Assembly (NCBI GenBank): GCA_020160935.1
Contig: JAIUPL010000009.1
Coordinates: 62,001-126,000, forward strand
Direction: 5' to 3'
DNA: 64,000 nucleotides
DNA from: Bacteroidota bacterium
Lineage (GTDB): Bacteria; Bacteroidota; Bacteroidia; Chitinophagales; Saprospiraceae
The position numbers and the translations under genes were made by a program. The notes under the pieces are model-generated. The model was given only the letters and a program-made list of their open reading frames with translations. It searched no databases and was not told the origin of the DNA. Below, in pieces: positions 4,551-60,817 of this stretch (positions within the stretch are counted from its first letter, which is position 1; every line of letters starts with the position of its first letter).

Positions 4551-4678
4551 TAGTCCTGAGTCCCAAGTCCTAAGTCCGTAGAGTACACCTCGTTACCTTT
4601 GCATACCAATCAATGAATGCCAATATTAACAAGGTGTACTCTACGGACTTAGGACTCAGGACTTACCACTCAGGACTC
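4551..4678. repeat. Family A long inverted repeat (copy 1)
   Basis: The arms are AGTCCTG/AGTCCCA/AGTCCTA heptamers followed by GTCCGTAGAGTACACCT. The inner loop contains TTACCTTTGCAT (a TAnnTTTG match) and AATGCCAATATTAA. The right arm is the reverse complement with one heptamer replaced (TTACCACTCAGG). It lies between convergent genes, and the symporter's TGA (4677-4679) overlaps its right end. Confidence 0.92.
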
Positions 4679-6608
4679 AATACTGACTCAGTTTATCCCA
4701 CCACGTCCGTTTCATCACCATAAACACCACCGTCAGCAAGGCCAGCACGATACCCAGGCCGGCCCACTTGTTCAGGATGAGGTACATGGGCAGCAGCATG
4801 AGCAAAATCTGGCCGCTCATGCCCAAAAGGACATTCAGGATATTGACACCCAAATTGGGATTTTTCTGAAAAGTCGGATCTTCTGCAACCGCCATATCAT
4901 GTACGGGTTTCCAGAAACCCCAGGGGCGTACAGTTTTGTAAAAATTCAGGAGCGTTTCGGTGTTGGTGGGCGGCGCTGAATAGGTGCCGGCGATGCACGC
5001 AATCAATTGAATGACGAAAAACACCGGGAAGAAGTACAGCATGCGTGTCCCATCGAAATAGTGCGTCACCCCGCTCACCGACAAGGCAGGCGGAATAGCG
5101 CTGGCTACAATCCCTGCCAGCATACCGTAGAAATAACCGGTGGCATTGAAGCGCCACCAGTACCATTTCAGCACATTGGCGCATACAAAGCCGCCGTACA
5201 GGCCCGCGGTGATGATGTTGAAAATCATGTTTACGTCCTTGATCAGCAGCCCCAGCCCGACGCCGAAAGCCACCATTACCACGCCACTCAGGTAACTCAT
5301 GGTGATGATTTGCTGGCGCGGCGCATCCGGGCGCACATATTTCAGGTAAATGTCGTTCACCATATATGCCTGCGCTGCATTGAGCGTGCCGCTGAAGTTG
5401 CTCATAAAAGCACCCAGGAAACCCGCCAGTACCAGTCCGATCAGGCCCACGGGCAGGAATTTGCTGATAACCGCAGGCATAATACTTTCAAAATTGATGA
5501 TGCCGTCGGAGCCGGTTTGCAAGTTCAAGTCCTTGAAATACAGGATACCCAGTACGCACAGGCCCATCGTCATAAAATAACGAATCGGCATGAGAATGAC
5601 CGAAATAAACCCGCTCATTTTGCTGGCTTCTTCCGGACTGCGCGTGCTCAAAATTTTCTGGCAATCGTAGTTGGGCGCCGGGCCCGCCAGGCTTTTTAGT
5701 ACGCCACTGAAAAACATCATGCCTACAATGGCTGAAAACAGGCGGTATCCATCCTGCTGGAGTTTCACCGCAGCATCGTCGATCATTTGCGACCAGTCGA
5801 GCCCGAGTTCCGTGCCAAAGAAAGGCGTGTCCCAACCCAGTGGCACATGATTAAGCACCCCCGATGCATCGCCGCCCATGTGTTGCATGGCAATGATGCC
5901 CACACACAGGGAGCAAACAATCATGATCATGTATTTGATAAAATCGGCCAATACGATACCGTGCATGCCTCCGATGATGCTGTAGAAAGTGGCAACAAGG
6001 CAAATGAGTACGCCATAAAACTGCGCTGTATTCTGTTTGGATACCTGCAAGGCCGTATTAAAGGCATCCGAACCCGCAGGGAAGGCTGCTTCTCCATGAC
6101 TTAAAAACGGGAACACATCCTTCACACGCTCGTACGGGAGGAAGATTTGTAAAAATTCGCCGACGCCTACAAAGGCATAGGCCATATAGCCCACACACAA
6201 CAACAAGGCAAAAACAACCACGATGATATGGCTCTGCATAACGCCTTTGTCGTTCAGCCCAAAACGCGTGCCCAGCCATTCTGCGCCCGTCGTCGCATTG
6301 CTTCTTCGCAACCATCTGCTCAGGAATACCATCAAAAAAATCTGGTTGAACACGGGCCACATCCACGGAATCCACACGCTTTTGAAGCCGTACAAAAATG
6401 CCATACTTACCAGCAGCATCGTACCGCTGATATCGAACATATCGCTGGCATCGCTCAGGCCAAGCATATACCAGGGCAGGCTTTTTCCGCCCATCAGGTA
6501 GGCGTCTTTACTTTTTCTGGCCCGATTGCGCATGTAATAACCAAGCATTACCATCATCAAAAAATACGACAGGATGATGCTCAGATCGAGGGTAGAAAGT
6601 ACGTACAT
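4677..6608 (-). CDS. Sodium:solute symporter family transporter
   Basis: An integral membrane Na+-coupled symporter of the SSS family, 643 residues with about 13-15 hydrophobic segments. The start at 6608 (MYVLSTLDLSIILSYFLMM) puts the first membrane helix at the N-terminus as in the family; the longer reading adds 48 residues of non-membrane sequence. Family features are RKSKDAYLMGGKSLPWY after helix 1 and the unwound-helix region SDASDMFDISGT. The chain is longer than the roughly 500-residue classical members, with an extra C-terminal helix. The substrate is unknown; the neighbouring beta-glucosidase, divergently transcribed, makes a sugar or glycoside plausible. The stop codon sits inside the family A hairpin arm. 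Confidence 0.88.
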   Translation of the reverse strand: MYVLSTLDLSIILSYFLMMVMLGYYMRNRARKSKDAYLMGGKSLPWYMLGLSDASDMFDISGTMLLVSMAFLYGFKSVWIPWMWPVFNQIFLMVFLSRWLRRSNATTGAEWLGTRFGLNDKGVMQSHIIVVVFALLLCVGYMAYAFVGVGEFLQIFLPYERVKDVFPFLSHGEAAFPAGSDAFNTALQVSKQNTAQFYGVLICLVATFYSIIGGMHGIVLADFIKYMIMIVCSLCVGIIAMQHMGGDASGVLNHVPLGWDTPFFGTELGLDWSQMIDDAAVKLQQDGYRLFSAIVGMMFFSGVLKSLAGPAPNYDCQKILSTRSPEEASKMSGFISVILMPIRYFMTMGLCVLGILYFKDLNLQTGSDGIINFESIMPAVISKFLPVGLIGLVLAGFLGAFMSNFSGTLNAAQAYMVNDIYLKYVRPDAPRQQIITMSYLSGVVMVAFGVGLGLLIKDVNMIFNIITAGLYGGFVCANVLKWYWWRFNATGYFYGMLAGIVASAIPPALSVSGVTHYFDGTRMLYFFPVFFVIQLIACIAGTYSAPPTNTETLLNFYKTVRPWGFWKPVHDMAVAEDPTFQKNPNLGVNILNVLLGMSGQILLMLLPMYLILNKWAGLGIVLALLTVVFMVMKRTWWDKLSQY

Positions 6609-6905
6609 AGGTTGTTTTTCAAAAGAAGATTGAATCGTTTTGCTCCGTAAAAAAAGTAAATGTATAGGCAATGCCCCGCACGGGTATGCCTGAGTACCGC
6701 CCTGCTGCGCCATTTTGCCGAATTCTACCACCCTTTTACCTGAAAATGCCAAATAATTACGTGAGCCATCTCGAATTTTTGAGGATGTTTGGCCCGGCTA
6801 TGAAACACCCCATATTTTCGAAAAGGGATCGGGCATAGCCCAACAAAACATCCCGAAAAAACCCTGAATGCATCAACCGACAATCATTTTAACAAGCAAG
6901 CGATC
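6609..6905. other. Divergent control region between symporter and beta-glucosidase, with imperfect inverted repeat
   Basis: This 297-bp region has no gene. It must carry the promoters of both flanking genes, but no exact TAnnTTTG box was found. An imperfect inverted repeat has its left arm at 6783-6802 (GGATGTTT then GGCTATG) and its right arm at 6834-6853 (CATAGCCC then AACATCC). It lies about 50-120 bp before the glucosidase start and could be an operator or leader hairpin. Confidence 0.5.
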
Positions 6906-8288
6906 ATGCGTAAATCATTCCCCTCCGGATTCGTATGGGGTAGTGCCACCTCGGCATATCAGGTAGAAGGCGGCTGGAATGCCGACGGTAAAGGCCCTTC
7001 GATCTGGGACGTATTCTGTATGATTCCCGGAAAGGTCTGGAATAATGATAATGGTAATATTGCATGCGACCACTACCACCGGCTGGAAGAAGATGTGGCG
7101 CTGATGCAATCAATGGGGATCAAGGCTTATCGCTTTTCCATTTCCTGGCCGCGTATTTTGCCCGCCGGGCGTGGCGCCCTCAACCAGGCCGGTATCGATT
7201 TTTACAACCGGCTCATCGATGCACTACTGGCCGCTGGTATCGAACCCTGGGTGACACTTTACCACTGGGACCTGCCTGCAGCCCTCGAATTTGAAATAGA
7301 TGGCTGGCTGGGAGAGGAAATCCCCGAGGTTTTTGCCGAATACGCCGAACTGTGTTTTCGGCACTTCGGCGACCGGGTAAAAAACTGGATCACCATCAAT
7401 GAAGCATGGGTGGTGGCTATCCTGGGCTACGGGCACGGCGTGTTTGCTCCCGGCAAGGTGTCGAAAGATTTGCCTTACCGGGCAGGACACCAATTGCTGA
7501 AAGCCCATGCCCGCGCCGTAGAGGTGTACCGCACCCGCTATCAGGCGATACAAAACGGCAAAATCGGTATCACCAACAACTGCGACTGGCGCGAACCGCT
7601 CAGCGACAGCCCTGCCGACCGGGCTGCGGCCCAGCGCGCACTGGAGTTTTTTCTCGGCTGGTTTGCCGATCCGGTGTATAAAGGTGATTACCCCGACTGT
7701 ATGAAAGAAAGACTGGGCGAGCGCCTGCCGTCCTTTTCGCCCGAAGAAAAAGCGTTGCTAAAAGGCTCTTCCGATTTTTTCGGCCTCAATCACTACACCA
7801 CTATGTACGCTTCGGAAGCGAAGCCTGATGCTGGCTCTGGGAGTGTGTACGGCAATGGCGGCCTCTCGGAAGACCAGGATGTCGATCTGAGTGTTTCGCC
7901 CGATTGGGAAATGACGGATATGCAATGGGCCATTGTGCCCTGGGGCTGTCGGAAACTACTCGAATGGATTGCTGCACGGTATGACAACCCGCCTGTTTTT
8001 ATCACCGAAAATGGCTGCGCATTTGATCAGACACCTGTCAACGGGCAGGTGCAAGACGATGCCCGCATTCGTTTTTTTCAAGGCTATCTGACAGCAGTAC
8101 ACGAAGCCATTGAAAAGGGCGTGGATGTGCAGGGATATTTTATCTGGTCCTTGCTCGACAATTTTGAATGGGCGTCCGGTTATTCCAAAAAGTTCGGAAT
8201 AACCTGCATCGAGGAAGGTACCCTGAACAGGATACCCAAAGCATCGGCCCAATGGTATGGAGAGGTGGTGCGCAACAACGGGCTGTAA
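6906..8288 (+). CDS. GH1 family beta-glucosidase
   Basis: A 460-residue glycoside hydrolase family 1 enzyme that hydrolyses beta-glucosides such as cellobiose with retention of configuration. The N-terminal GFVWGSATSAYQVEGG is the GH1 signature, the acid/base Glu lies in TINEAW (the family usually has NEP), and the nucleophile Glu lies in FITENG near residue 365. The C-terminal YFIWSLLDNFEWASGYSKKFG is the conserved aglycone-site region. There is no signal peptide, so it is probably cytoplasmic and acts on imported disaccharides. It diverges from the sodium:solute symporter, which may supply the substrate. NEA in place of NEP is a small deviation and leaves the catalytic Glu intact. Confidence 0.95.
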   Translation: MRKSFPSGFVWGSATSAYQVEGGWNADGKGPSIWDVFCMIPGKVWNNDNGNIACDHYHRLEEDVALMQSMGIKAYRFSISWPRILPAGRGALNQAGIDFYNRLIDALLAAGIEPWVTLYHWDLPAALEFEIDGWLGEEIPEVFAEYAELCFRHFGDRVKNWITINEAWVVAILGYGHGVFAPGKVSKDLPYRAGHQLLKAHARAVEVYRTRYQAIQNGKIGITNNCDWREPLSDSPADRAAAQRALEFFLGWFADPVYKGDYPDCMKERLGERLPSFSPEEKALLKGSSDFFGLNHYTTMYASEAKPDAGSGSVYGNGGLSEDQDVDLSVSPDWEMTDMQWAIVPWGCRKLLEWIAARYDNPPVFITENGCAFDQTPVNGQVQDDARIRFFQGYLTAVHEAIEKGVDVQGYFIWSLLDNFEWASGYSKKFGITCIEEGTLNRIPKASAQWYGEVVRNNGL

Positions 8289-8321
8289 AAGGTTGTGCGC
8301 AGCACAGCAGGAAAACGGATT

Positions 8322-8915: not shown

Positions 8916-8923
8916 GTTTTTAA

Positions 8924-9058
8924 AGTCGTAAGTCCTGAGTCTTGAGTCCTAAGTCCGTATAGTACACCAGATTACTCTTGAGTGTTCTTAATTGAAGTGC
9001 CAAGGGTAATCAGGTGTACTCTATAGACTCAGGACTCAGGACTATCGACTCAGGACTC
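8924..9058. repeat. Family A long inverted repeat (copy 2)
   Basis: Heptamer arms (AGTCGTA, AGTCCTG, AGTCTTG, AGTCCTA), then a GTATAGTACACC core and a loop with TTACTCTTG and CAAGGGTAA, then the complementary arm ending GACTCAGGACT. It lies between the ribE start and the DUF937 stop, both on the minus strand. The core base change in GTATAG is partly mirrored by CTATAG on the other side. Confidence 0.92.
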
Positions 9059-9065
9059 TCATGAG

Positions 9066-9937: not shown

Positions 9938-10525
9938 ATGAACTATCGCGCTGCAAAAAAATACATCCTGGATCGACTCCGAACAGAGCTGTCGGTTCAT
10001 TTGTATTATCATGGCCTGCATCATACCGTCGATGTTTTGAAAATGGCCACCCAAATTGCGCTCGAAGAAGGCGTGCGCGGCCGCGATCTCATGCTGGTCA
10101 AAACGGCTGCCTTGTACCACGATTGCGGTTTTGTAAAAAACAAACATGCCGGCCACGAGGCCGAAGGGTGTATCATCGTGCGGGAGCAATTGCCCCAACT
10201 AGGCTATACCGATGCCGATATTGAAAAAATATGCGGTATGATTATGGCCACAAAAATTCCTCAAACTCCCCAAAATTTGCTGGAAGAAATCATCTGCGAT
10301 GCAGACCTCGATTACCTCGGGCGCCCCGATTTTTATCCCATCGGCAACACCTTGTACAAGGAAATGCAGAGTTACCACCTCATCGGCGACGAAATTGCCT
10401 GGAACAAACTCCAGGTCAGTTTCCTTTCCGCCCATCGTTTTTATACCCGCACCAACAAAATACTTCGCGACCCGGTGAAGCAACAGTATTTGAAGCAGTT
10501 GCAGTTGGTGGTGGAAGCGTATTGA
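9938..10525 (+). CDS. HD-domain phosphohydrolase
   Basis: A 195-residue cytoplasmic HD-domain protein. The metal-binding pattern is visible as H-HH (YHGLHHTVDV), the HD dyad (LYHDCGF), a following His pair (NKHAGHEAEG) and a late Asp (CDADLDYLGR). Such enzymes hydrolyse phosphate esters or cyclic nucleotides; the substrate here is unknown. The ATG at 9938 was preferred over 9896 because MNYRAAKKYILDRLRTEL starts the homologous helix. The gene runs to a family A hairpin that separates it from the convergent large peptidase. The upstream 240 bp holds no other gene and no exact -7 box. Confidence 0.85.
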   Translation: MNYRAAKKYILDRLRTELSVHLYYHGLHHTVDVLKMATQIALEEGVRGRDLMLVKTAALYHDCGFVKNKHAGHEAEGCIIVREQLPQLGYTDADIEKICGMIMATKIPQTPQNLLEEIICDADLDYLGRPDFYPIGNTLYKEMQSYHLIGDEIAWNKLQVSFLSAHRFYTRTNKILRDPVKQQYLKQLQLVVEAY

Positions 10526-10660
10526 AGTCCTGAGTCGACAGTCCTGAGTCCTGAGTCCGTAGCGTACACCTGAATACTTTTGGCATTCATTGATAAGAGG
10601 CTAAAAGTATTCAGGTGTACGCTACGGACTCAGGACTCAGGACTGTCGACTCAGGACTTA
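10525..10660. repeat. Family A long inverted repeat (copy 3, near-perfect arms)
   Basis: The two arms are about 58 nt and differ at one position; they include AGTCGACAGTCC units and the core GTAGCGTACACC. The core differs from the usual GTAGAGTACACC, and the change is exactly mirrored (GGTGTACGCTAC) in the other arm. The inner stem holds TACTTTTGGCATT. It lies between the convergent HD and peptidase genes. Confidence 0.94.
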
Positions 10661-10667
10661 CTCCAGT

Positions 10668-13733: not shown

Positions 13734-13854
13734 GGATATGAATTTTGGATGAATTTGAGAAAAGGGACTTCTAATCATATGTTACGATATGATACCTTTT
13801 AACAGATTTTCCTTCTAAAATTTTTTTTAAAATTTGTTATAAACAGGTTAAAAA

Positions 13855-13997
13855 AGTCCTGAGTCGTAAGTCCTGAGTCCTGAGTCTGTAGAGTACACAT
13901 TATTACTCCCGGCACCTCAACAAGTAAACGCCAAACTTAACAACGTGTACTCTACGGACTTAGGACTTACGACTCAGGACTCAGGACTTACGACTCT
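13855..13997. repeat. Family A long inverted repeat (copy 4, divergent context)
   Basis: The arms are AGTCCTG/AGTCGTA heptamers and the core is GTAGAGTACAC. The loop holds TTACTCCCGGCACC on one side and the reverse complement of TTAAGTTTGGCG on the other. It lies between divergent genes, and its right arm ends directly before the ATG at 13999. It can be read in frame as a spurious N-terminal extension of that gene. Confidence 0.92.
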
Positions 13998-18189: not shown

Positions 18190-18377
18190 GTGGGTTGATG
18201 AGTGTTGATAGGGTTGATGAGGTTGATGGGGTTGATAAGTGTTGATGAGGGTTGATAAGTGTTGATAAAAAACGGCTCGGGATAAGGGAAGGCGTTTCCA
18301 TTCATCGAGTGGCTGAATATCAACCCTCATCAACCCTCATCAACACTTATCAACCTCATCAACCTCATCAACCCTCA
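18190..18377. repeat. Family B inverted repeat (copy 1, core reversed)
   Basis: The arms are 9-10 nt units of the GTTGATGAG/GTTGATAAGT type. The roughly 50-nt core at 18270-18318 has CGGCTCGGGATAAGGGAAG and CATCGAGTGGCTGAAT, the reverse complement of the core in the three other B copies. It lies between divergent genes (SDR and MlaE). Confidence 0.9.
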
Positions 18378-18608
18378 AAAGTATGCCTGCTCTACCCTTA
18401 CCTGTAATTTTTTACAAAAAAAAAGAAATTGTCCGTTCAATCCGGCCAGGAAAAGTGCAAACGCGCTTTGAAGACGTTTCTGTTGTCGGATGTTCAATTG
18501 TTCGGTTGGTATTCCTGAATTTTAGAAAAAAAAGCCGAACCTTTGTCCTCAACCCCTCAACTCCTCAACCCCTCAACCCCTCAACATTGCTCAACCTCCT
18601 CAACATTC
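18378..18608. other. 5' flank of mlaE with one-armed CTCAACCC repeat
   Basis: No gene is seen here. From about 18546 to 18607 lies a degenerate tandem series of CTCAACCC/CTCAACCT units running up to the ATG at 18609, with no complementary partner nearby. It looks like a single arm of the hairpin type seen elsewhere. Confidence 0.6.
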
Positions 18609-19371: not shown

Positions 19372-19514
19372 ATAGTAGTCCTGAGTCGTAAGTCCTGAGT
19401 CCTAAGTCCGTAGAGTACACCTGATTGCCCTTGGTATTCTTTTTAAATAAGCCAAGTGTAATCAGGTGTACTCTACGGACTTAGGACTCAGGACTTACGA
19501 CTCAGGACTACTAT
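19372..19514. repeat. Family A long inverted repeat (copy 5)
   Basis: The arms match at all but a few positions over about 60 nt. The outermost bases, ATAGTAG on the left and CTACTAT on the right, are unique to this copy yet complementary to each other. The core GTAGAGTACACCTGATT is perfect on both sides. It separates mlaE from the leader-peptide gene. Confidence 0.94.
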
Positions 19515-19555
19515 CAGAAACCTGACTTTTAGAAAAATGTGGCAGGTGATCCATT

Positions 19556-21643: not shown

Positions 21644-22081
21644 ATGCTGAATGTAATGTCTGCTCGCCCTCATACCACCGACGCCACCGAACCCCAGGCG
21701 GGCACCATGTCGGTTGTGATGCCTCGCGAATACCGCCCCGAACCAAGCGGCAATAAAATTGTATTGCCCACAATGGAAGGTATGTGCTTTGAAAAAGTAA
21801 AACAAATCGCTTATCTGGAAGCCAGCGGTAATTATACCGTGTTGCATTTCACTGACGGCCGTCAGGTGCTTGTTTGCCGTACCCTGCGCGAAGTGGAACT
21901 GCTGCTGCCCGAGTCTGCATTCGTGCGCATCCACCGCTCGCATACCGTGCACCTGAAACACCTGAAAAAATACGTGCGCGGAAAAGGCGGCCATGTCGTA
22001 TTGCAAAACGGCGTCTCGCTTACAGTTTCGGCCGGACAAAAAGACTTTTTTCTGGAATCACTGAAGGTGTATTTTGGGTAA
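21644..22081 (+). CDS. LytTR-type DNA-binding regulator without receiver domain
   Basis: A 145-residue protein. Residues about 45-145 form a LytTR domain (FEKVKQIAYLEASGNYTVLHFTDG, VLVCRTLREVELLLPESAFVRIHRSHTVHLKHLKKYVRGKGG), which binds promoters as imperfect direct repeats. The N-terminal 45 residues are low complexity with no receiver or sensor, so activity may depend on level or on a partner. Such stand-alone LytTR proteins in other phyla control bacteriocin, competence or membrane-linked genes. The start 21644 sits after a good promoter; an upstream in-frame start at 21518 would precede the -7 box and is rejected. The gene runs into a family B hairpin, then a true terminator at 22362-22400. 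Confidence 0.88.
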   Translation: MLNVMSARPHTTDATEPQAGTMSVVMPREYRPEPSGNKIVLPTMEGMCFEKVKQIAYLEASGNYTVLHFTDGRQVLVCRTLREVELLLPESAFVRIHRSHTVHLKHLKKYVRGKGGHVVLQNGVSLTVSAGQKDFFLESLKVYFG

Positions 22082-22267
22082 GGGTTGATAGAAGTTGATG
22101 AGGGTTGATAAAGGTTGATGAGGGTTGATATTCAGCCACTCGATGAATGGAAATACCATCCCTTACCCCGAGCCGCTATTCATCAACCTTTATCAACCTC
22201 ATCAACCTCATCAACCTTTATCAACTCTTATCAACCCTCATCAACCCTCATCAACCCTCATCAACTT
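22081..22267. repeat. Family B inverted repeat (copy 2)
   Basis: A short left arm of GTTGATGAGG-type units, a core at 22131-22180 (TTCAGCCACTCGATGAATGG, then CCTTACCCCGAGCCGC) and a longer right arm of about a dozen TCATCAACC units. The right arm is roughly twice the left. It starts at the LytTR stop. Confidence 0.9.
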
Positions 22268-22361: not shown

Positions 22362-22400
22362 ACGCCGGACGCGGCAATTCGTGCTCCGGCGTTTTTTTTT
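22362..22400 (+). terminator. Rho-independent terminator after LytTR
   Basis: Stem ACGCCGGA / TCCGGCGT with a 15-nt loop, followed by nine or more T residues. It is a classical terminator for plus-strand transcription, lying between a family B and a family A repeat. Confidence 0.8.
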
Positions 22401-22538
22401 GAGTCCTGAGTTGTAAGTCCTGAGTCCTGAGTCTGTAGAGTACACCTGATTACTATTGGCTTTAATATCAAGGATATTCAAGGGTAATCAGGTGTACTCT
22501 ACAGACTCAGGACTCAGGACTTACGACTCAGGACTCAA
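22401..22538. repeat. Family A long inverted repeat (copy 6)
   Basis: Arms GAGTCCTGAGTTGTAAGTCC and the complement, core GTAGAGTACACCTGATTAC, loop with TACTATTGGC and CAAGGGTAA. The TGA of the CBS gene (22535-22537) lies in the right arm. It directly follows the terminator T-run. Confidence 0.93.
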
Positions 22539-23524
22539 CATAAAACCCTCACCGTCTCAATCTTCCGGTCGCTCACCAGTTCCGCTATATACGTTTTGCC
22601 ATCCAGTTGCAGCCGGGCGCCCTGCTCGGGGATGCTTTGCGTTGCAAAAATCAGGTACCCCGAGAGGGTATTGTAATCGCCGGTAGGGATGTTTAATTCC
22701 GGAAATTTCTCGTTGATATAGTTTACATCCAGCCGCCCGGAAAGCAGATATTCCTGCTCGCTGATACGCACTTCTATAAATTCTTCCTGATCGTGTTCGT
22801 CGTCAATTTCGCCGAACAGTTGTTCCAGCGCGTCTTCCAGCGTAACCAGTCCGGCCAGGCTGCCATATTCGTCTACCACGCAGGCAATATTGGTGCGATT
22901 TTTTATGAATTTGTGCAGCAAGTCGTTGATCTGGATACTTTCCGGCACAAAAGTGATGGGCATCACAATGCCACGGATGCTGCGCGGGTGGCTGAATAAT
23001 TGCTGCACGTGTACATATCCCAATACCCCGTCGAGGTCGCCATCGGTTATGATGATCCTGGACAGGCTGCTGGAGATGAACAACTTGCGCAATTCGTCTA
23101 CCGAAGCCTGCACGTCGATATGAACGATTTCAGGGCGGGGCGCCATACAATCATAGGCACGCACCTGTTTCATATGCAAGGCATTTTCGAGCAGGCCCAT
23201 TTCCATTTCTTCCTCACCCGGAATGCCGGACACATTTTGCTGCACGAGGTATTCGATGAGGGCGGCATCGCCTTCGCTGTGAATATTCCTGTAAATACTA
23301 TGGAAAAGCAGGTTTTTGAAAAAAAGCAGAAACGAGAACAGCAACAGGGAAAGCAACACACCACTTATCCACATGCTGCCTGTTTGTGCGTACACCCAGG
23401 GGCCCAGTATGATGCATGAAAACGAAGCCAGGCTTGTCAGAAACAAGGTAGCCGGCAAGGTTGTACTTCCGACGCGAAACGCCGAAGACCAGGAGAGCAT
23501 TCGTTTGGAGGAAGGGTCGTCCAT
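22535..23524 (-). CDS. CorC/HlyC-type CBS-domain membrane protein
   Basis: A 329-residue protein. The N-terminal 95 residues hold two hydrophobic segments (TTLPATLFLTSLASFSCIILG and ISGVLLSLLLFSFLLFF). Two CBS domains follow at about 125-245 (VRAYDCMAPRPEIVHID; ACVVDEYGSLAGLVTLEDALEQLFGEI) and then the transporter-associated CorC/HlyC domain (LLSGRLDVNYINEKFPELNIP). CNNM-like proteins bind nucleotides in the CBS pair and affect Mg2+/Co2+ transport or, as GldE, gliding. The membrane part is shorter than a full DUF21. uppP starts 6 bp upstream on the same strand, so the two likely share a transcript. Its stop lies in the family A arm. Confidence 0.85.
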   Translation of the reverse strand: MDDPSSKRMLSWSSAFRVGSTTLPATLFLTSLASFSCIILGPWVYAQTGSMWISGVLLSLLLFSFLLFFKNLLFHSIYRNIHSEGDAALIEYLVQQNVSGIPGEEEMEMGLLENALHMKQVRAYDCMAPRPEIVHIDVQASVDELRKLFISSSLSRIIITDGDLDGVLGYVHVQQLFSHPRSIRGIVMPITFVPESIQINDLLHKFIKNRTNIACVVDEYGSLAGLVTLEDALEQLFGEIDDEHDQEEFIEVRISEQEYLLSGRLDVNYINEKFPELNIPTGDYNTLSGYLIFATQSIPEQGARLQLDGKTYIAELVSDRKIETVRVLC

Positions 23525-26436: not shown

Positions 26437-26442
26437 CGTTAT

Positions 26443-26570
26443 GGGTTGATGAGGGTTGATAAGTGTTGATGAGGGTTGATATTCAGCCACTCAATGAATG
26501 AATATATCTTCCCTTAACTCGAGCCGCTATTTATCAACCCTCATCAACACTTATCAACACTTATCAACCC
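26443..26570. repeat. Family B inverted repeat (copy 3)
   Basis: Arms of GTTGATGAGG/GTTGATAAGT units and core 26482-26531 (TTCAGCCACTCAATGAATG, then CTCGAGCCGCTAT). Directly behind it (26571-26590) is a short CCAATAACTGATAACC stretch of the family C arm type, as if a remnant of a second element. Confidence 0.88.
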
Positions 26571-26668
26571 CCAACCAATAACTGATAACCAAACGGTGAA
26601 CCCTTCTGCTTTCCTACTGTTTTGAGGCTTTATTGTCTGTTGTAAAGGGCTTTCGCCCGTCTTTTTTG

Positions 26669-28487: not shown

Positions 28488-28650
28488 TGAGGTTGATGAG
28501 GTTGATAGGGTTGATGAGGTTGATAAGTGTTGATGAGGGTTGATATTCAGCCACTCAATGAATGAAAATACCATCCCTTACCTCGAGCCGCTATTTATCA
28601 ACCTCATCAACCCTATCAACCCTCATCAACACTTATCAACCCTCATCAAC
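28488..28650. repeat. Family B inverted repeat (copy 4)
   Basis: Arms of GTTGATGAG/GTTGATAGG units, core 28546-28596 (TTCAGCCACTCAATGAATG, then CTCGAGCCGCTAT), nearly the same core as copy 3. It lies between the ABC exporter and the next lipoprotein gene. Confidence 0.9.
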
Positions 28651-28672
28651 CAACACCTACGCACCTATCCTT

Positions 28673-32765: not shown

Positions 32766-32912
32766 ATTAGTCGTGAGTCCTGAGTCCTAAGTCCTGAGTC
32801 CGTAGAGTACACCTGCATACTCTTGGCATTAATACAAACAGAATCCAAGAGTATACAGGTGTACTCTACGGACTCAGGACTTAGGACTCAGGACTTAGGA
32901 CTTTCAACTCAG
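32766..32912. repeat. Family A long inverted repeat (copy 7)
   Basis: Arms AGTCGTGAGTCCTGAGTCC and the complement, core GTAGAGTACACCTG, inner stem TACTCTTGGCATT / AATCCAAGAGTA, so nearly the whole element pairs with a loop of about 10 nt. It directly follows the frr stop and ends a few bases before DUF5606. Confidence 0.93.
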
Positions 32913-38764: not shown

Positions 38765-40420
38765 ATGCTTCGAAAAGTATTTTTCCCGCTCTGTCTTGTA
38801 TTCATGTCCAGGATGCTTCCTGCCCAGCAAACGCAGCCTGCTCAACCCAAACTGATAGTTGGCATCGTAGTCGATCAGATGCGCTATGATTTTCTGTATC
38901 GCTATCAGGCAAAATATTCCCCCGGCGGCTTCAAACGCCTGCTGTCAGAAGGTTTCACTTGCGAAGACGTCCGCTATAATTATGTGCCTACCTACACAGC
39001 ACCCGGGCACAGCGCTATTTACAGTGGTGCTACACCTTCGGTAAATGGAATTATCGGCAACGACTGGTGGGACCCGGAATGGGGCGAACACCGATACGTG
39101 ACGACCGACAAACGGTACCGCCCGGTTGGAACCAACAACAACAAGGCAGGGCAGCATTCACCGTCGGTATTGCTCTCCACTACCATTACCGACGAATTGC
39201 GCCTGTCCAATAATTTCCAGTCGAAAGTTGTAGGCGTTTGCCTGAAAGACCGGGCCAGTATCCTGCCTGCCGGTCATATTCCCAATGCCTGTTACTGGTT
39301 CGACGACTCCACGGGCAATTGGATAACATCTTCCTATTACCCCGATTCGTTGGGCCTGCCAGAATGGGTACAGTCATTCAACGCCCGTCGTTTACCGGCA
39401 AAATATCTTTCTCAACCCTGGGCCACCGATTCGAGCCTTCAGTACAACGAAAGTTTTGCCGGCTGGGACCGCTACAACAAAGGCAAATACGGCAAATTTT
39501 CAGGGTCTATGCCCTACAATCTGCCTGAAATGTACAAAACACAGGGATTCGGCGTGATTCGGTTCACCCCCATGGGCAGTACCCTCACCACGGACTTTGC
39601 CATCGAAGCGATCGAAAAAATGGGACTCGGCCTGGATGCCTACCCCGATTTTCTTTGCCTGAGTTATTCCAGTACCGACTACTGCGCGCACCAGTTTGGC
39701 ATCCACGGCGAAGAAACCGAAGATGTGTATATCAAACTCGACCGCGACCTGGCCCGTATCCTGGATTTTCTGGATAAAAAATTCGGAAAAAACAATGTAC
39801 TGGTTTTCCTCACAGCCGATCATGGGGGCGGCGAAACGCCGGTACACATGAACGACCTGCGCATTCCGGCCGGTGTTTTTGAAGAAAGCAAACTGGAAGC
39901 CAACCTGGAAAATTTTCTGGCTGTACAATTAGGCTCCACAGGCGATTTTATCCACGATGTGTCCAATCAGCAAATCTGGCTCAATTGGGAAGCCATTGCC
40001 GACCTCGACCTCAATCCGGAAGACCTGGCCCACAACATCATCGAATACCTGCGCGCTCAAAAAGGGGTGTATGACGCCTTCACACGCGATGAAGTGATGT
40101 CGTACCCCATCGAATTCCCTTATGCTTCCGAAACACGCCGCGGACTGCACCCCCGCCGCTCTGGCGACGTACTCTTTCAACTCGATCCGGGCTGGCACTC
40201 CGATGACAACCTGTTCAAACTCGGCGGCGCCACCCATGGCTCGCCTTACGCCTACGACACGCATGTGCCGCTGTTGTGGTATGGCTGGAAAGTACCACAC
40301 GGCGTGAGTTATACCCCCTGGAATATTACCGATATTGCCCCTACACTGTCGGCTATGCTGCGTATCGCCCGGCCGAGCGGTACCACAGGCGTGGTGATGG
40401 AGGAGGTTTTCAAGCAATAA
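38765..40420 (+). CDS. Alkaline phosphatase superfamily (PafA-like) enzyme, exported
   Basis: A 551-residue exported phosphatase with a signal peptide (MLRKVFFPLCLVFMSRMLPAQ). The nucleophile Thr lies in YVPTYTAPGHSAIYSG, followed by NDWWD, and the metal ligands are visible in IVVDQMRYDF, SSTDYCAHQFG, TADHGGGETP and THGSPYAYDTHVP, the arrangement of PafA-type calcium-requiring alkaline phosphatases. It would release phosphate from monoesters in the periplasm. It diverges from hppA, and a family A hairpin follows its stop. The family is sure; the substrate range is inferred. Confidence 0.92.
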   Translation: MLRKVFFPLCLVFMSRMLPAQQTQPAQPKLIVGIVVDQMRYDFLYRYQAKYSPGGFKRLLSEGFTCEDVRYNYVPTYTAPGHSAIYSGATPSVNGIIGNDWWDPEWGEHRYVTTDKRYRPVGTNNNKAGQHSPSVLLSTTITDELRLSNNFQSKVVGVCLKDRASILPAGHIPNACYWFDDSTGNWITSSYYPDSLGLPEWVQSFNARRLPAKYLSQPWATDSSLQYNESFAGWDRYNKGKYGKFSGSMPYNLPEMYKTQGFGVIRFTPMGSTLTTDFAIEAIEKMGLGLDAYPDFLCLSYSSTDYCAHQFGIHGEETEDVYIKLDRDLARILDFLDKKFGKNNVLVFLTADHGGGETPVHMNDLRIPAGVFEESKLEANLENFLAVQLGSTGDFIHDVSNQQIWLNWEAIADLDLNPEDLAHNIIEYLRAQKGVYDAFTRDEVMSYPIEFPYASETRRGLHPRRSGDVLFQLDPGWHSDDNLFKLGGATHGSPYAYDTHVPLLWYGWKVPHGVSYTPWNITDIAPTLSAMLRIARPSGTTGVVMEEVFKQ

Positions 40421-40564
40421 AAGTCCTGAGTCCTGAGTCCTAAGTCCTAAGTCCTTAGAGTACACCTGTCTACTATTGGCTTCAGTTTGAAGAATAACCA
40501 AGGGTAAACAGGTGTACTCTACAAACTCAGGACTTAGGACTCAGGACTTAGGACTCCCGACTCA
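40420..40564. repeat. Family A long inverted repeat (copy 8)
   Basis: Arms AGTCCTGAGTCCTGAGTCC and the complement with units in a different order, core TTAGAGTACACCTGT / ACAGGTGTACTCTACAA, loop with TACTATTGGC and CCAAGGGTAA. The GH2 gene's TGA (40562-40564) is in the right end. Confidence 0.9.
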
Positions 40565-49362: not shown

Positions 49363-50397
49363 ATGAGTAAAAGAACATCCCGCTCCCGAATAATGGCCTA
49401 TGTGCTGATTGGAGCGTTGCTCGTATCGACTGTTTTTGCGGTCATTCAACCATTTTTGATGTCGATAGGCGGGCCGAAGCCAACACCCCCACCACCGACG
49501 GAGCCAATCGTAAAAGTGGAGGCACCGCCTTTCAATGCCGATTCAGCGTTTGTTTTTGTCCAAAAACAAGTGGCTTTCGGCCCGAGGGTGCCCAATACGC
49601 CGGCACATCAAAAATGTTCTGCCTGGTTTGCCAATGAGTTTAAACGATACGGGCTTAGTGTCATTTCCCAAAAATTTGAGGCAACCCATTTCAAGGGCAC
49701 ACAATTCAATGCTGTCAACATCATCGCTCAATACCGCCCCGAATTGCCTCGCCGTATCTTGCTGGCTGCGCATTGGGACAGCCGTTTTCAAGCAGACAAG
49801 GACGATAAAAACAAAACCGCCCCCATCGATGGCGCCGACGATGGCGGAAGCGGCGCAGCAGTCCTGCTCGAAATTGCCCGTACACTGGCTGCACACCCGA
49901 TCGATCAGGGGGTCGATCTGATTTTGTTCGATGTGGAAGATCAGGGCGACGACAATGGCGAACCTGAAACCTGGTGCCTCGGCTCACAGTACTGGGCCAA
50001 GCACCTGCACAAAGCGGGATATATGCCGTACTCCTCCGTTTTGCTAGATATGGTAGGCGCCAAAGATGCCCGTTTCATGAAAGAAGGCATTTCCATGCAG
50101 GTAGCCCCTCAAACGGTGGATAAAATATGGGCGCTTGCCTCCAGCCTGGGCTACAGCAGTTATTTCATCCCGGAAACGCGCAGCGGTATTACCGACGACC
50201 ACGTATTCGTAGCCCGCGAAGCGAGTATTCCCATGATCGATATTATCAGTACTCCAAATGAAGGGGACGATCCCTTCGGCCGCCACCACCACCGCCATTC
50301 TGATAACATGAGCGTTATCGATAAAAACACCTTAAAGGCCGTTGGGCAAACGATGCTGGCGTTTTTGTATGGTTTTTCTCAAAGTCCCAAGTCCTGA
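49363..50397 (+). CDS. M28 family zinc peptidase (glutaminyl-cyclase-like)
   Basis: A 344-residue exported or membrane-anchored protein: one N-terminal hydrophobic segment (IMAYVLIGALLVSTVFAV), a Pro-rich linker (GGPKPTPPPPTEP), then an M28 domain. Metal ligands are seen in LLAAHWDSR, DGADDGGSG, LFDVEDQG and HHHRHSDN. The loop FDVEDQGDDNGEP resembles M28 members that act as glutaminyl-peptide cyclotransferases. Its last residues (SPKS and stop) are encoded by the arm of a family A hairpin. Confidence 0.86.
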   Translation: MSKRTSRSRIMAYVLIGALLVSTVFAVIQPFLMSIGGPKPTPPPPTEPIVKVEAPPFNADSAFVFVQKQVAFGPRVPNTPAHQKCSAWFANEFKRYGLSVISQKFEATHFKGTQFNAVNIIAQYRPELPRRILLAAHWDSRFQADKDDKNKTAPIDGADDGGSGAAVLLEIARTLAAHPIDQGVDLILFDVEDQGDDNGEPETWCLGSQYWAKHLHKAGYMPYSSVLLDMVGAKDARFMKEGISMQVAPQTVDKIWALASSLGYSSYFIPETRSGITDDHVFVAREASIPMIDIISTPNEGDDPFGRHHHRHSDNMSVIDKNTLKAVGQTMLAFLYGFSQSPKS

Positions 50398-50518
50398 GTC
50401 CTAAGTCCTAAGTCCGTAGAGTTGACCACGTTACTTTGACATTCATAATGAAAGATGCACTATGAAACGTGGTCAACTCTACGGACTTAGGACTCAGGAC
50501 TTACGACTCAGGACTTCA
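50382..50518. repeat. Family A long inverted repeat (copy 9, GTTGACC variant)
   Basis: Heptamer arms, core GTAGAGTTGACCACG / CGTGGTCAACTCTAC instead of GTACACC; the change is mirrored in both arms. It supplies the C-terminal codons and stops of the convergent M28 peptidase and cyclase genes. Confidence 0.93.
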
Positions 50519-52107: not shown

Positions 52108-52111
52108 AGAA

Positions 52112-52318
52112 GAGGGTGAGAGCGTGAGAGCGTGAGAGAAGTGAGAGGGTGAGAGATGTGAGAGAGTGAGAGCGTGAGAGAGTGAGAGATGTGAGAGTTC
52201 GTAGAGTACACCGTTTCACTCTAGAATTTTTTAGCACATAGCGGTGTACTCTACGAACTCTCACATCTCTCACTCTCTCACATCTCTCACTCTCTCACAT
52301 CTCTCACTTCTCTCACAC
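52112..52318. repeat. Family E inverted repeat (family A core, GAGAGTGA arms)
   Basis: The arms are 8-9 nt units of GAGAGTGA/GAGAGCGT/GAGAGATGT and their complement. The centre holds TTCGTAGAGTACACCG and CGGTGTACTCTACGAA, the same GTAGAGTACACC core as family A. It lies between convergent genes, and the TGA of the subtilase gene (52313-52315) is in the right arm. Confidence 0.92.
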
Positions 52319-54364
52319 CTCTTGTATATTCGTTCCAATCACCCATTGATTCACACCGATACGGTGCCAGCCATTGCTGCTGGTTTCGTAAATGGTGACA
52401 AGAGCCCCCTGTTTCAGTTCGGCCACTTTGGCATTGGCGGTGGAAGGGCCGTTGCGCACATTGAGGAATGAAGACGTGACCTTGCCGCGGCGCGTAGCCG
52501 GCGGAATGGTGGTACCCGGGCTGGCCAGCACCTGAATATAGTCGGCACTTACGTATTGGCCCGGGCCGATTTTCCAGAAATTGGCTGATTTTTCCAGTAA
52601 ACTTACCACATCACCCTGTTTCAACTCGCCTACTTTGGCAGCAGTTGTGGAAGGGGCATTGCGCACGTTGAGGAATTTATAGGTCACCTTGCCCTGCTTG
52701 ATAGACGAAGTCGGGTTGTTGACCGGAGGTTGAGGGGTCGGGGTTGGTGTTGGGGGCTGTGGTGTTACGCTACCGCCGCCGCCAGCCAGTTGAATGGCCA
52801 TTTTCACGGCTTTCAAGGCATTGACGCGACCATAACCCAGGTAGGGAGAACGACCGGAAGCGTCGTAGCCACCAGCAATTTTATCAGTGGTTTGTTTAAA
52901 AATACTGCGAATTTGCTCTACAGAGAGGTTCGGATTGGCCGACAACAGCAGGGCACAAATACCTGCCGACAGCGGTGCAGCGCTTGAGGTGCCGCCAAAG
53001 CCACTGGTGTACGTGTTTTGCAGGGTTTGGCCGTCTGAAGTCACTACTGTAGCCGTTGTGATACCTACGCCGTTGTTGCCATTCGTAGGCGCCGACATAA
53101 AGGCGTTTGCGCCATAAAACGAATAACTCGACGCTTCATCGAGGCTGTTGGATGCCGTGATGCATAAAACATCGGGGTGGGCAGCAAAATCGCTCACTTG
53201 TCGCGGCTGGTTGTTGGATGCAGGGTTGGCATTGCCTGCCGCAATAAAAATGGGGGTTCCTTTCCCGCCACGGCCTTGCGAAGCCACTTTTCGGATGGTA
53301 TTGAAGACCCAGGTAGAAAGCGGCACTGGCTTCGGAAACCCAAGGCTGCACGAAATAATATCAGCGCCGTTGAGCAGGGCGTGTTCGAATGCTTTCACAA
53401 TGGCATCGTCGCTCAACACATCGAGTTTGATAGGAATGAAACGGCTGTTCGGTGCTGCGCCCAGCACGCCCAGCGCATCCCAGGCGCCCAGCGCTACGGC
53501 GGCACAAGACGTACCGTGGCTGAACACGCCGCGCGAGCCGTCGCTGGCCTGAAACCAGGGCGACACATCGGCACTGCGGGTGGCCGCATTAAAGGTGTTA
53601 CGGATTTTGCTGCCATCGCCGCGCAATTGCGGGTGATCGGTAGAAAAACCCGTATCAATTACTGCAATTTTGATGCTCGAAGAGCCCAAGCTTCCCATGT
53701 ACGTCCAGGCTTCCTTCACTTTGGCATCGGCGCCACGGCGAAAATGCGCAGTGCCATACACTGCATTCGGAATGTCGATGATCGGAATCTGACTGCCCGT
53801 ATTTTCCAGGTGCCATTGCGAGGCAATAAATTTGCCATTGGGCAGGTTGAAATCATTGGTGGCCGGTTTGGTCACGAACTCCGGCTCTGCCACGGCTACA
53901 ATGCGCTTTTTTTGCAGCAACATAGCGCACTTGATCGGATTGGGTGATTCGGGTGTGGTGTTGACCCTATAGGCATCCGGGCCGACCATTTCGCGAATAT
54001 TCAGGGCAAATTCGTCGAGTATGGCGCGTTGTTTTTCTTCGGCCGAACCGGCTTTAAATTCCACGTACAGGTAGCCCGTAGGCACAAAAGCAGCATCGTC
54101 TTCATCGTTCACGTACCATACGTGGGTACCTACCGACACCTCGGGTTTTTCCCGCAGGGCGTCGAGTTTTTTGTCGATGCCGGTGCGTGATTTTACGATT
54201 TCGAAGTCGCGGAGTTGTTCCGGCGATTTGGATTTGCCTGTGCTTCGTTTGCTGGCAGGTTTCATGCCGGGGTTGTAACGTACGGCGGCTTCGGTTTTAC
54301 TTTTTGTAAATTTCAGGGTTTCTCCACCGAATTTAAAAGTAGCCGTATTGACTTTCTTGGCCAT
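52313..54364 (-). CDS. S8 (subtilisin-like) serine peptidase with two SH3b domains
   Basis: A 683-residue protein. The catalytic triad is in IAVIDTGFSTDHP (Asp), FSHGTSCAAVALG (His) and GFGGTSSAAPLSAG (Ser). An N-terminal region of about 200 residues precedes it (FKFGGETLKFTKS...). After a Pro-rich linker (PQPPTPTPTPQPPVNN), two bacterial SH3 domains occupy the last 135 residues (KVTYKFLNVRNAPST; KVTSSFLNVRNGPST). SH3b domains bind peptidoglycan, but no signal peptide is seen at the start, which is odd. The stop is in a family E arm. Confidence 0.9.
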   Translation of the reverse strand: MAKKVNTATFKFGGETLKFTKSKTEAAVRYNPGMKPASKRSTGKSKSPEQLRDFEIVKSRTGIDKKLDALREKPEVSVGTHVWYVNDEDDAAFVPTGYLYVEFKAGSAEEKQRAILDEFALNIREMVGPDAYRVNTTPESPNPIKCAMLLQKKRIVAVAEPEFVTKPATNDFNLPNGKFIASQWHLENTGSQIPIIDIPNAVYGTAHFRRGADAKVKEAWTYMGSLGSSSIKIAVIDTGFSTDHPQLRGDGSKIRNTFNAATRSADVSPWFQASDGSRGVFSHGTSCAAVALGAWDALGVLGAAPNSRFIPIKLDVLSDDAIVKAFEHALLNGADIISCSLGFPKPVPLSTWVFNTIRKVASQGRGGKGTPIFIAAGNANPASNNQPRQVSDFAAHPDVLCITASNSLDEASSYSFYGANAFMSAPTNGNNGVGITTATVVTSDGQTLQNTYTSGFGGTSSAAPLSAGICALLLSANPNLSVEQIRSIFKQTTDKIAGGYDASGRSPYLGYGRVNALKAVKMAIQLAGGGGSVTPQPPTPTPTPQPPVNNPTSSIKQGKVTYKFLNVRNAPSTTAAKVGELKQGDVVSLLEKSANFWKIGPGQYVSADYIQVLASPGTTIPPATRRGKVTSSFLNVRNGPSTANAKVAELKQGALVTIYETSSNGWHRIGVNQWVIGTNIQEV

Positions 54365-56538: not shown

Positions 56539-56599
56539 ATCTTTTTTGGAAATACGTTGTTTTGTGTGTCAATACGGTATCCGGACTTTCGGATCACCA

Positions 56600-56628
56600 C
56601 AAAAGTACCGCACACACACCCATTTCAA
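56600..56628 (-). promoter_or_regulatory. Promoter of hutU
   Basis: The complement reads TTG, 18 nt spacer, then TACTTTTG (box at 56600-56607), about 60 nt before the start at 56538; a good match to the Bacteroidota consensus. Confidence 0.65.
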
Positions 56629-56635
56629 CAACACC

Positions 56636-57355: not shown

Positions 57356-57375
57356 GGGATAGCCCGTGAGATAGC

Positions 57376-57616
57376 CCGTTCGGCTTCGCCTCACGGTAGG
57401 AGGGGGCTTGGATTGGGCGGATCAGGCGGATTTTTTTGATTTGGTGGCCTGTCGGCCACTTTTTTTAATAAAAATGGATACCAGAAAGCCAAACATTTAT
57501 TATCACAAAACCAATACAATCAAAGAAGGTGGCCGAAAGGCCGCCAAATCAAAAAAATCCGCCTGATCCGCCCAATCCAAGGCCCCTCCTACCGTGAGGC
57601 GAAGCCGAACGGGCCA
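57376..57616. repeat. Family G inverted repeat (large, non-tandem arms)
   Basis: Two arms of about 90 nt, CGTTCGGCTTCGCCTCACGG and onward through GGATTGGGCGGATCAGGCGG and TTTTTTTGATTTGG to GGCCACTTTT, with the complement on the right. The arms match at nearly all positions, around an AT-rich 55-nt loop. Unlike the other families the arms are not short tandem repeats. Confidence 0.9.
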
Positions 57617-57644
57617 TCTTAACAATCATTTTCCCATCCAGCCC

Positions 57645-58319
57645 ATGTCCTTTTCAGATCAAGTCATTGCCTTCACCCGATCACTCCGCGTACCCGACAT
57701 TGCACTCCCCAACGGGTTTGAATGGCTGTTCCCTTACGATCAGCCGGAAACGATGCAAGCGCTCAGCACTTTTTACGAGCGTTTTTACACGGGTTCGCAG
57801 GCGCGCACTTTTTTGTTCGGCATCAATCCGGGTCGTTTTGGAGCGGGCATCACCGGTGTGCCTTTTACAGATCCGGTTCGGCTGGAAAAGGAGTGCGGTA
57901 TTGCCAACACCTTTCAGAAAAAGGCGGAGTTGTCGTCCATTTTTGTGTGGGAATACATCAACGCCTACGGCGGGGCCGAGTCTTTTTGCCGTGATTTTTA
58001 CATCACATCCATTTGTCCCCTGGGTTTTGTGAAGGATGGGAAAAACATCAATTACTACGATGATCGGGCTTTGCAGAAAGCGGTAGAGCCGTTCGTTGTG
58101 TGGAATATCCGCACCCAACTGGAATTCGGCGCCAACCGCGAAACCGCCCTGTGTATGGGGGAAGGCCAGAATTTCGCATTTTTTGCAAAACTCAATGCCC
58201 AACACGGTTTTTTCAAAAAAATAATCCCGCTCCCGCATCCGCGTTGGGTGATGCAGTACCGCCGGCCTACGATGGGGGTGTATGTAGAGCGGTATGTGGA
58301 GGCACTGCGGGCCTCTTAG
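57645..58319 (+). CDS. SMUG2-type uracil-DNA glycosylase family protein
   Basis: A 224-residue DNA repair enzyme of the SMUG2 group in the uracil-DNA glycosylase superfamily. The active-site motif is GINPGRFGAGITGVPFTDP (about residues 63-81), with ITSICPLGFVKDGKNINYYDD and HPRWVMQYRRP (catalytic His region) further on. It would excise uracil or deaminated bases. The start at 57645 follows the large repeat; the reading from 57594 begins in the repeat. A family C hairpin follows its stop. Confidence 0.88.
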   Translation: MSFSDQVIAFTRSLRVPDIALPNGFEWLFPYDQPETMQALSTFYERFYTGSQARTFLFGINPGRFGAGITGVPFTDPVRLEKECGIANTFQKKAELSSIFVWEYINAYGGAESFCRDFYITSICPLGFVKDGKNINYYDDRALQKAVEPFVVWNIRTQLEFGANRETALCMGEGQNFAFFAKLNAQHGFFKKIIPLPHPRWVMQYRRPTMGVYVERYVEALRAS

Positions 58320-58461
58320 TTATCAGTTATTTGTTATTGGTTATCAGGGGAGGTAAGGGGCCATCTGTAGAAATGCATAGCATTCCTTTTTGTGTGGCAA
58401 AACATTTCTACAGATGGCCCCTTACCTCCCCTGATAACCAATAACAGATAACAGATAACTA
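58320..58461. repeat. Family C long inverted repeat (copy 3)
   Basis: Arms of GGTTATC/AGTTATT/TGTTATT units, then TCAGGGGAGGTAAGGGGCC and CATCTGTAGAAATG with the complement. Between convergent genes; its core differs from copies 1 and 2 after AGGTAAGGGG. Confidence 0.9.
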
Positions 58462-60642: not shown

Positions 60643-60666
60643 ATACGTGCCGGTTGAAAAGGCGGG

Positions 60667-60674
60667 CAAAAGTA
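60667..60674 (-). promoter_or_regulatory. Candidate -7 box of the DPP4-like gene, abutting a family A repeat
   Basis: The complement reads TACTTTTG. Its -33 region falls inside the arm of the family A repeat at 60678-60817, so the hairpin has moved into the promoter or supplies part of it. No TTG is found. Confidence 0.5.
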
Positions 60675-60677
60675 ATG

Positions 60678-60817
60678 AAACTTAAGTCCTGAGTCGACAG
60701 TCCTAAGTCCTAAGTCCGTAGAGTTGACCGCATTACTCTTGTATCCTGATGAATAAATGCCAAAAGTAACGCGGTCAACTCTACGGACTTAGGACTGTCG
60801 ACTCAGGACTTAAGTTT
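60678..60817. repeat. Family A long inverted repeat (copy 10, GTTGACC variant)
   Basis: Core GTAGAGTTGACCGC / GCGGTCAACTCTAC. The left arm has one more AGTCCTA heptamer than the right. The outer ends AAACTTAAG / CTTAAGTTT are copy-specific but complementary. It carries the stop (60803-60805) of the SRPBCC gene. Confidence 0.93.

Follow-up and report, generated by a model that had tools for sequence, protein, structure and literature searches.

Ten long hairpins lie between genes in a 64-kb stretch (hereafter the window; contig JAIUPL010000009.1, positions 62,001 to 126,000) of the genome of a Bacteroidota bacterium of the family Saprospiraceae (assembly GCA_020160935.1; G000 below, 5.84 Mb in 51 contigs), and each carries a conserved core, GTAGAGTNNACC and its complement, within inverted arms of degenerate AGTCC heptamers. 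These A-type hairpins belong to a feature that is real, unusual and genome-wide. On balance, we think it probable that they are modular foldback cassettes fixed at the 3' ends of genes, whose symmetry is maintained by templated copying between the arms and whose content is overwritten by other copies. Four things are directly observed, namely covariation of the arms within a copy, stability of the sites relative to one sister species, loss of the orthology signal from the interiors, and copies within the genome that resemble each other only up to the ends of their arms.

An earlier note on this DNA had reported ten inverted repeats, and all ten are present, with AGTCC-heptamer arms around the core, the one placed at 60678 in fact beginning near 60683. 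The mirroring of the arms that it described holds overall and is imperfect in some copies (the arms of those at 8924 and 13855 do not match throughout), and what it took for a loop is in large share an additional, variable inner stem. The ten hairpins, along with one that has the same core and arms of another type, are as follows:

4551..4690, no strand: A-type hairpin 1, core at 4578-4589 and 4633-4644
8924..9065, no strand: A-type hairpin 2, core at 8957 and 9013, arms imperfect
10525..10660, no strand: A-type hairpin 3, core GTAGCGTACACC in both arms
13854..13996, no strand: A-type hairpin 4, arms incompletely mirrored
19372..19515, no strand: A-type hairpin 5
22391..22546, no strand: A-type hairpin 6, interior like that of the copy at G000:C17:14969
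32766..32912, no strand: A-type hairpin 7, directly after the ribosome recycling factor gene
40420..40562, no strand: A-type hairpin 8, flanked by convergent genes
50382..50517, no strand: A-type hairpin 9, core GTAGAGTTGACC
60683..60815, no strand: A-type hairpin 10, core GTAGAGTTGACC, AGTCGAC units in both arms
52111..52322, no strand: B-type hairpin, core as in A-type (52201-52212 and 52243-52254), arms of GTGAGAG units

In the whole element the arms lie outside the core, which begins with GTAG and ends with CTAC in most copies. Allowing up to two mismatches, the window has 24 matches to the 12-nt core where 1.9 would be expected (at most 7 in 100 shuffles), with 20 of them within the ten hairpins, two in the B-type hairpin and two elsewhere. 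In four of the ten (4578, 19410, 22435 and 32802) both arms carry the exact core, two have the variant GTAGAGTTGACC and one GTAGCGTACACC on both arms, and in the remaining three (8957, 13888 and 40455) the core differs from arm to arm. Arms measure 44-68 nt in nine of the ten and elements about 133-147 nt. Folded as single-stranded DNA, the ten reach -35.5 to -75.5 kcal/mol (z -7.6 to -22.4), with none of 200 shuffles as good in any case. The ten open reading frames adjoining the elements encode ordinary Pfam domains. Rfam covariance models gave no match in the window at gathering scores and a single tRNA in five further stretches (100 kb), and a known RNA family was accordingly rejected for the elements. 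Chance origin was likewise rejected, long inverted repeats being found in one of 300 coding chunks and in none of 60 kb of block-shuffled DNA, as was an assembly artefact, since elements with the same core occur in separately deposited metagenome-assembled genomes (MAGs).

A whole-genome search for the paired core, as the earlier note had proposed, placed the ten copies in a genome-wide set: G000 has 114 forward and 117 reverse matches to the exact core, and 137 to the strict pair GTAGAGTNNACC..GGTNNACTCTAC, this pair being present in three of the 30 genomes searched, G000 included. Three arm types share the one core, namely A (AGTCC heptamers), B (GTGAGAG) and C (CGCAGA-type), and the 99 core elements in 1.99 Mb of G000 comprise 59 A, 18 B, 20 C and two others. 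By eye, arm class and inner-stem type go together in most copies; L070, with B arms and an A-like interior, is one exception. Long inverted repeats in general (score at least 20, in 1.23 Mb) occupy 76 of 137 convergent junctions versus 101 of 438 tandem and 24 of 141 divergent ones. The 188 hairpins with a score of at least 25 fall by shared arm 6-mers into twelve clusters of at least two members and seven singles, the largest cluster lumping several arm types. At that score, density is 18.0 per 100 kb in G000 and 18.4 per 100 kb in one contig of G030 (MAG-362), a sister species that matches the window at about 88%. The more distant relative G033 has five in 40 kb and five in 20 kb, seven other members of the genus (40-60 kb sampled each) have 0 to 15 per 100 kb, and none was found in 15.4 and 7.4 kb of two members of the order's other families. 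Tandem-unit arms are seen by eye in only part of the relatives' hairpins. Among the matches listed, the relatives that share this type of element are MAGs of Saprospiraceae or Bacteroidota, and the A-arm pattern is found in two of 42 genomes of the genus, G000 itself and G038, which by inference is G030, its contig coordinates agreeing with those of MAG-362.

The mirror between the arms of class A copies is real and weakens outward. In 47 copies (43 intergenic, three inside called genes and one without a neighbour pair), the inner-stem 6-mer is identical left and right in 26 (shuffled mean 3.0, maximum 10 in 2000 shuffles), the core dinucleotide agrees in 44 (29.0 when shuffled) and the five nucleotides adjacent to the core agree in 39 (shuffled mean 22.3), while units 2, 3 and 4 agree in 35, 31 and 21 copies against 20.3, 21.2 and 9.6. 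The variable letters and the inner stem carry the arm-to-arm signal. In class B (n=17) the core dinucleotide and the three closest arm stretches are mirrored, the little-varying inner stem hardly at all; in class C (n=11) the arms are mirrored. B-arm lengths are correlated left to right (Spearman 0.45, n=39). No corresponding mirroring of arm lengths was found in class A. Between related copies, defined by an interior similarity of at least 0.82, differences mirrored on both arms number 25 in G000 (19 pairs, 589 positions; pairs share members, and a single cluster, C20, contributes eight of the 19 pairs and 13 of the 25 differences) and 26 in G030 (29 pairs, 899 positions), against 2.2 under independence in either genome. 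An oddity within the arm, GAACAA, is seen at three G030 sites, twice in both arms and once in a single arm, and nowhere in the other four genomes searched.

Covariation in a hairpin is usually taken as a sign of a selected RNA structure. Selection on an RNA hairpin, acting as a bidirectional terminator or mRNA end, could maintain the symmetry through compensatory mutation, and both the share of convergent junctions occupied (76 of 137) and the stop codons of genes contained in the arms agree with this. Against it, the 101 hairpins between tandem genes (5216 pairs, read on the transcribed strand as assigned with a simple, unpublished codon-usage gene caller) contain 86 G.T, 84 A.C and 115 transversion-type mispairs. 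As a control, 19 tRNAs from the same genome have 12 G.T, no A.C and two other mispairs in their acceptor stems, and the two sets differ in their G.T:A.C ratio (Fisher p 0.0005). Because G.T mispairs are no commoner than A.C, the pairing of the arms does not look RNA-selected; evolution through GU pairs, the mark of intrinsic terminators, is not what these counts display. In Bacillus cereus, according to the accessible part of one report, terminators evolve mainly via GU (PMC5381666). Moreover, a single mismatch in a stem of ~60 bp should scarcely be selected. We regard selection on RNA as an unlikely source of the symmetry: covariation is strong here, yet there is no sign of RNA selection.

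Comparison with the sister species indicates that the sites stay and their content changes. From 67 G030 elements examined, 38 have one or both flanks outside the G000 DNA compared and 29 could be located, and 25 of the latter lie opposite a G000 element of the same class (21 A, 3 B, 1 C). Of the remaining four, two are opposite a degenerate element of the same class (L021 and L051, by eye), one is opposite a different hairpin (L041:1960) and the fourth (C76:1306) is opposite no element. Occupancy agrees at 64 of 67 junctions (27 occupied in both, 37 in neither, three in G030 only), in a set enriched for elements as many G030 loci were fetched for having one; at one of the three G030-only junctions there is actually an A element, placed inside a gene by the gene caller. 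Contig C76 alone has seven junctions occupied in both, nine in neither and one in G030 only.

The A-type interiors themselves hold no orthology signal between G000 and G030, the sites being stable. At 12 interior positions identity is 0.536 in the 21 A-A ortholog pairs, 0.549 in non-orthologs and 0.798 between the two arms of a copy, and similarity of the whole interior is 0.602 versus 0.606, with 3070 of 5000 permutations as high; 16 A-A pairs likewise show no signal (3466 of 5000 permutations as high). An apparent signal with the arm classes pooled (0 of 5000 permutations as high) was set aside as an effect of mixing classes, since it vanishes within class A. Coding DNA of the window is 0.883 identical to G030 and four-fold sites 0.643; symmetric neutral evolution simulated at the latter identity leaves a similarity of 0.670, above the 0.602 seen and the 0.606 of non-orthologs, a simulation that ignores indels and shared consensus and is supporting only. 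The earlier note held that identical elements at all sites in close relatives would speak against a recent arm-copying mechanism, and identical elements are not carried at the sites compared. Among perfect inverted repeats surveyed across 118,019 genomes, arms are, according to the part of that study available, conserved relative to spacers within species (PMC13155455), unlike the pattern between G000 and G030.

More distant relatives, with flanks 79-85% identical, gave 27 comparisons, with five junctions occupied in both genomes, 18 in neither, three in the relative only and one in G000 only, the relative having a weaker hairpin (score 14) at the last. In the six of these comparisons that have a hairpin in G000, the relative's arms are, by eye, of another family. 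At the site of hairpin 2, G030 has an A-type element with another interior, G033 a different family and the relative G031 a weak hairpin (score 14) of yet another family; at that of hairpin 3, G031 has a B-type hairpin; at that of hairpin 4, the G030 interior is different and G033 has a hairpin of another family; and at that of hairpin 10, both arms in G030 have AGTCGTA units, with a GTAGCGTACACC core. A single C-type copy of G030 is lacking in G000, amid further sequence changes. In addition, the hairpin at 57369-57619 in the window has 101-nt arms of 93% complementarity, and one like it is found in G030 and not at the G000 junction C26:70289, which makes these two sites a candidate filled/empty pair. 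Locus L025 of MAG-362 has a hairpin with GATTACATGATTTA-like units where G000:C24:105571 has about one unit, possibly a nascent or decayed element.

Evidence for overwriting comes from copies within one genome. Those at C33:19919 and C21:69254 in G000 are 0.96 alike inside; the similarity ends at the ends of the arms, the flanks are unrelated, and G030 has other interiors at both sites. In three more G000 pairs (0.94, 0.89 and 0.87 alike), also with unrelated flanks, similarity likewise stops at the arms, and for the 0.94 pair, in cluster C20, the G030 interiors differ at both sites, G030 sites having been located for the 0.96 and 0.94 pairs only. Compared with its G030 counterpart (three sites each), the C20 cluster shows similarities of 0.65-0.88 within a genome and 0.56-0.64 between orthologs, in one orientation, so that its copies are closer to their neighbours than to their orthologs. 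Copies less than 3 kb apart are 0.814 alike (eight pairs, four of them from C20 and with shared members) versus 0.606 across contigs (0 of 2000 permutations). Similar turnover could arise at hotspots if foldback copies inserted repeatedly into the loop or arms of a resident whose older layer was then lost. In favour of this, layered elements with half-cores in both arms make up two of 67 G030 copies (with others by eye, at L044 and L049), and near-identical copies do sit at occupied sites. However, layered forms are rare, with none of the 99 G000 elements having half-cores on both sides and five on one side, and the arm class at a site is nearly always conserved; this alternative strikes us as rather improbable. 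At L039:3166 and L051:2489 in MAG-362, half-cores are repeated within both arms, as if one element lay inside another's loop.

The reading that we favour, of fixed cassettes with templated arms and overwritten contents, would work as follows. A cassette would comprise the conserved core (GTAGAGTNNACC plus complement), a variable inner stem and inverted arms of one tandem-unit type. Within a copy, one arm may serve as template for the other, by hairpin template switching in replication (the quasipalindrome mechanism) or by foldback synthesis, so that a change in a single arm would be erased or mirrored. Between copies of the same arm class, the content of occupied sites would be overwritten, probably by short-homology exchange via the arms with nearby donors favoured. 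Given both processes, sites and arm class would persist as sequence turns over. The polymerase or recombination step, like the stop function discussed below, we infer from such patterns.

Several results count against this proposal. The outermost unit tested, unit 5, agrees in 25 of 47 copies against 20.6 (a result matched by 47 of 2000 shuffles), left and right A arms show no correlation in length (Spearman -0.02, n=101), and there is little or no covariation in the class B inner stem and the class C interior. Over 33 nt of arm, the two sides of a copy share a raw identity of 0.891, whereas non-orthologous copies reach 0.871 and orthologous ones 0.863 (32 copies from 16 ortholog pairs), values that lie close together because the repeat unit dictates most letters. 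Differences confined to one arm equal or outnumber those on both (22 in G000, 36 in G030), the C20 cluster weighs heavily in the both-arm and short-distance counts, and overwriting of interiors alone, with resident symmetric arms retained, could also yield both-arm differences. Identity at four-fold sites may overstate retention in neutral noncoding DNA. Finally, no single template switch was caught in a young enough lineage, one genome per species having been compared. Overwriting of copies in place formed no part of the earlier note. Its proposal that one arm is copied from the other gains from the inner 6-mer, the both-arm differences and the parity of G.T and A.C, and loses at the outermost unit and in A-arm length; its statement that arms match within and not between copies is borne out at the variable positions only, raw identity being nearly equal.

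The earlier note had also named a mobile, REPIN-like hairpin. On such a reading, RAYT or other Y1 tyrosine transposases would move the hairpins, symmetry would reflect a transposition intermediate and shared sites would be old insertions or hotspots. Searches of all five genomes found Y1 genes in each, with one IS200-type and one RAYT-like gene in G000. The GTAG that opens the core at either end, recalling GTAG REPs, and the placement at gene ends and between convergent genes, as for published REPs, favour this origin, as do the other-family hairpin present in G030 and missing from the matching G000 junction, a B-arm-like piece in the G030 Y1 locus L222 and, by eye, B-like units downstream of the IS200-type gene in L009. 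On the other hand, the paired core was found at none of the 15 Y1 loci within ~1.5 kb on each side (some cut by contig ends), two loci having one loose unpaired core match each, a count that covers the Y1 genes within the profile's reach. The RAYT-like gene of G000 is bordered by different palindromes of its own, its matched 82-aa piece scores 53 bits against an NCBIfam cut-off of 80 (only the piece was scored), occupied sites are almost equal in the two species, and tandem-unit arms are not part of the REPIN plan in the published accounts available. An origin from RAYTs and REPINs was thus rejected for want of a paired core at these loci, and mobility of this kind is less well supported than copying from arm to arm and is, in our view, improbable. 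In G000 the RAYT-like gene at L010 is flanked by GTTGGCGTCCTCGCCAAC-like palindromes, and a hairpin with tandem CACATACGAATA units lies upstream of the IS200-like gene at L009.

Placement relative to genes points to a possible role. Of the intergenic class A copies, 24 of 43 lie between convergent genes, versus 147 of 755 junctions, or 105 of 444 junctions of at least 100 bp. Among gene 3' ends facing A elements, 51 of 64 end no more than 45 nt from the core, and in 29 of the 51 the distance is the one in seven that places the stop codon in a heptamer (p about 2e-12). Counted per 100 nt, stop triplets number 11.3 on the strand that the flanking gene enters and 3.0 on the other in the A cluster, 12.0 and 0.0 in B, and 4.8 and 1.3 in C; the values are 9.1 and 8.0 in the largest cluster and reversed in three small ones (sizes 4, 3 and 3). 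This pattern would fit a stop cassette, or insertion near gene ends with the new stops tolerated. Perhaps, then, the elements act as two-way stop signals, in which a gene running in from either side would meet stop codons in the arms, and transcription from both sides may be terminated by the stem.

The window also holds other hairpin families. Apart from the ten and the B-type element, eight more long hairpins are among the 25 of 76 pairs listed, plus one at 28488-28651. Those at 1512-1720, 2055-2256 and 58317-58461 have GTTATTG-like arms and a G-rich inner stem ending in TAAGGG, and G030 has a hairpin with another arm type at the site of the last. Hairpins at 18192-18380, 22081-22267, 26438-26575 and 28488-28651 have GGTTGATGA-type arms and a common asymmetric centre in either orientation. 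Matches to the core pair in Stenotrophomonas, Mucilaginibacter and Hoylesella lack tandem-unit arms by eye: L020:4032 and L054:2686 (Mucilaginibacter MAGs) are palindromes matching the GTAGAGTNNACC pair without such arms, and those at L046, L053 and L075 (Stenotrophomonas cyclobalanopsidis) by eye resemble GTAG REP doublets. In a collection of such size, some single chance matches to the core-pair pattern are expected.

Dispersed palindromes at gene ends are a kind already known. As far as the available text of their description goes, GTAG REPs (Di Nocera et al. 2013, PMC3733652) are high-copy palindromes with GTAG at one outer end, as here, in which complementary stem changes are common and which adjoin gene 3' ends, many between convergent genes. 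However, they are short stem-loops (20-40 bp, with a 6-13 bp stem) with frequent GT pairing, from Proteobacteria, Cyanobacteria, Chloroflexi and PVC, whereas the present elements are ~140 nt long with tandem-unit arms, show no excess of G.T over A.C and come from Bacteroidota. REPINs with their RAYTs, in the portion of PMC3116915 consulted, share the inverted doublet with a variable, pairing spacer and compensatory changes; here no core-flanked RAYT was found at the 15 Y1 loci, sites are kept as contents turn over, and the arms are tandem heptamers or octamers. Template switching renders inverted-repeat arms more alike, perfecting imperfect repeats, according to excerpts of PMC7202029, PMC8604942 and PMC8794818, which concern reporters or single hotspots, RNA genes and yeast genes, and no dispersed, overwritten family; concerted changes of both arms are seen here, the single events being undated. 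The TAACTGA heptamer repeats, judging from part of PMC4679880, are likewise intergenic heptamers with stops in all frames of the forward orientation, found in some Bacteroidetes too, but are direct repeats rather than hairpins, and most of those in the main genome closely precede start codons. Among the top matches listed in the open-access PMC literature, no description of elements like the present ones was found. As far as those searches reach, mirrored tandem-unit arms, sites kept with total turnover of the interior, and the swap of arm families at one site are undescribed.

More tentatively, these elements may form a site-fixed population of cassettes whose arms are at once homology handles for exchange and templates for mutual repair, presence and class being inherited and the sequence not. 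They might then be a non-transposing, replication-driven selfish or domesticated stop cassette, whose arm families are swapped between species of the genus at the same junctions. Such a natural system, with hundreds of parallel sites, makes arm-templated mutation and overwriting between copies measurable. If our favoured reading is true, it would account for how an intergenic hairpin can last at the end of a gene without a lasting sequence.

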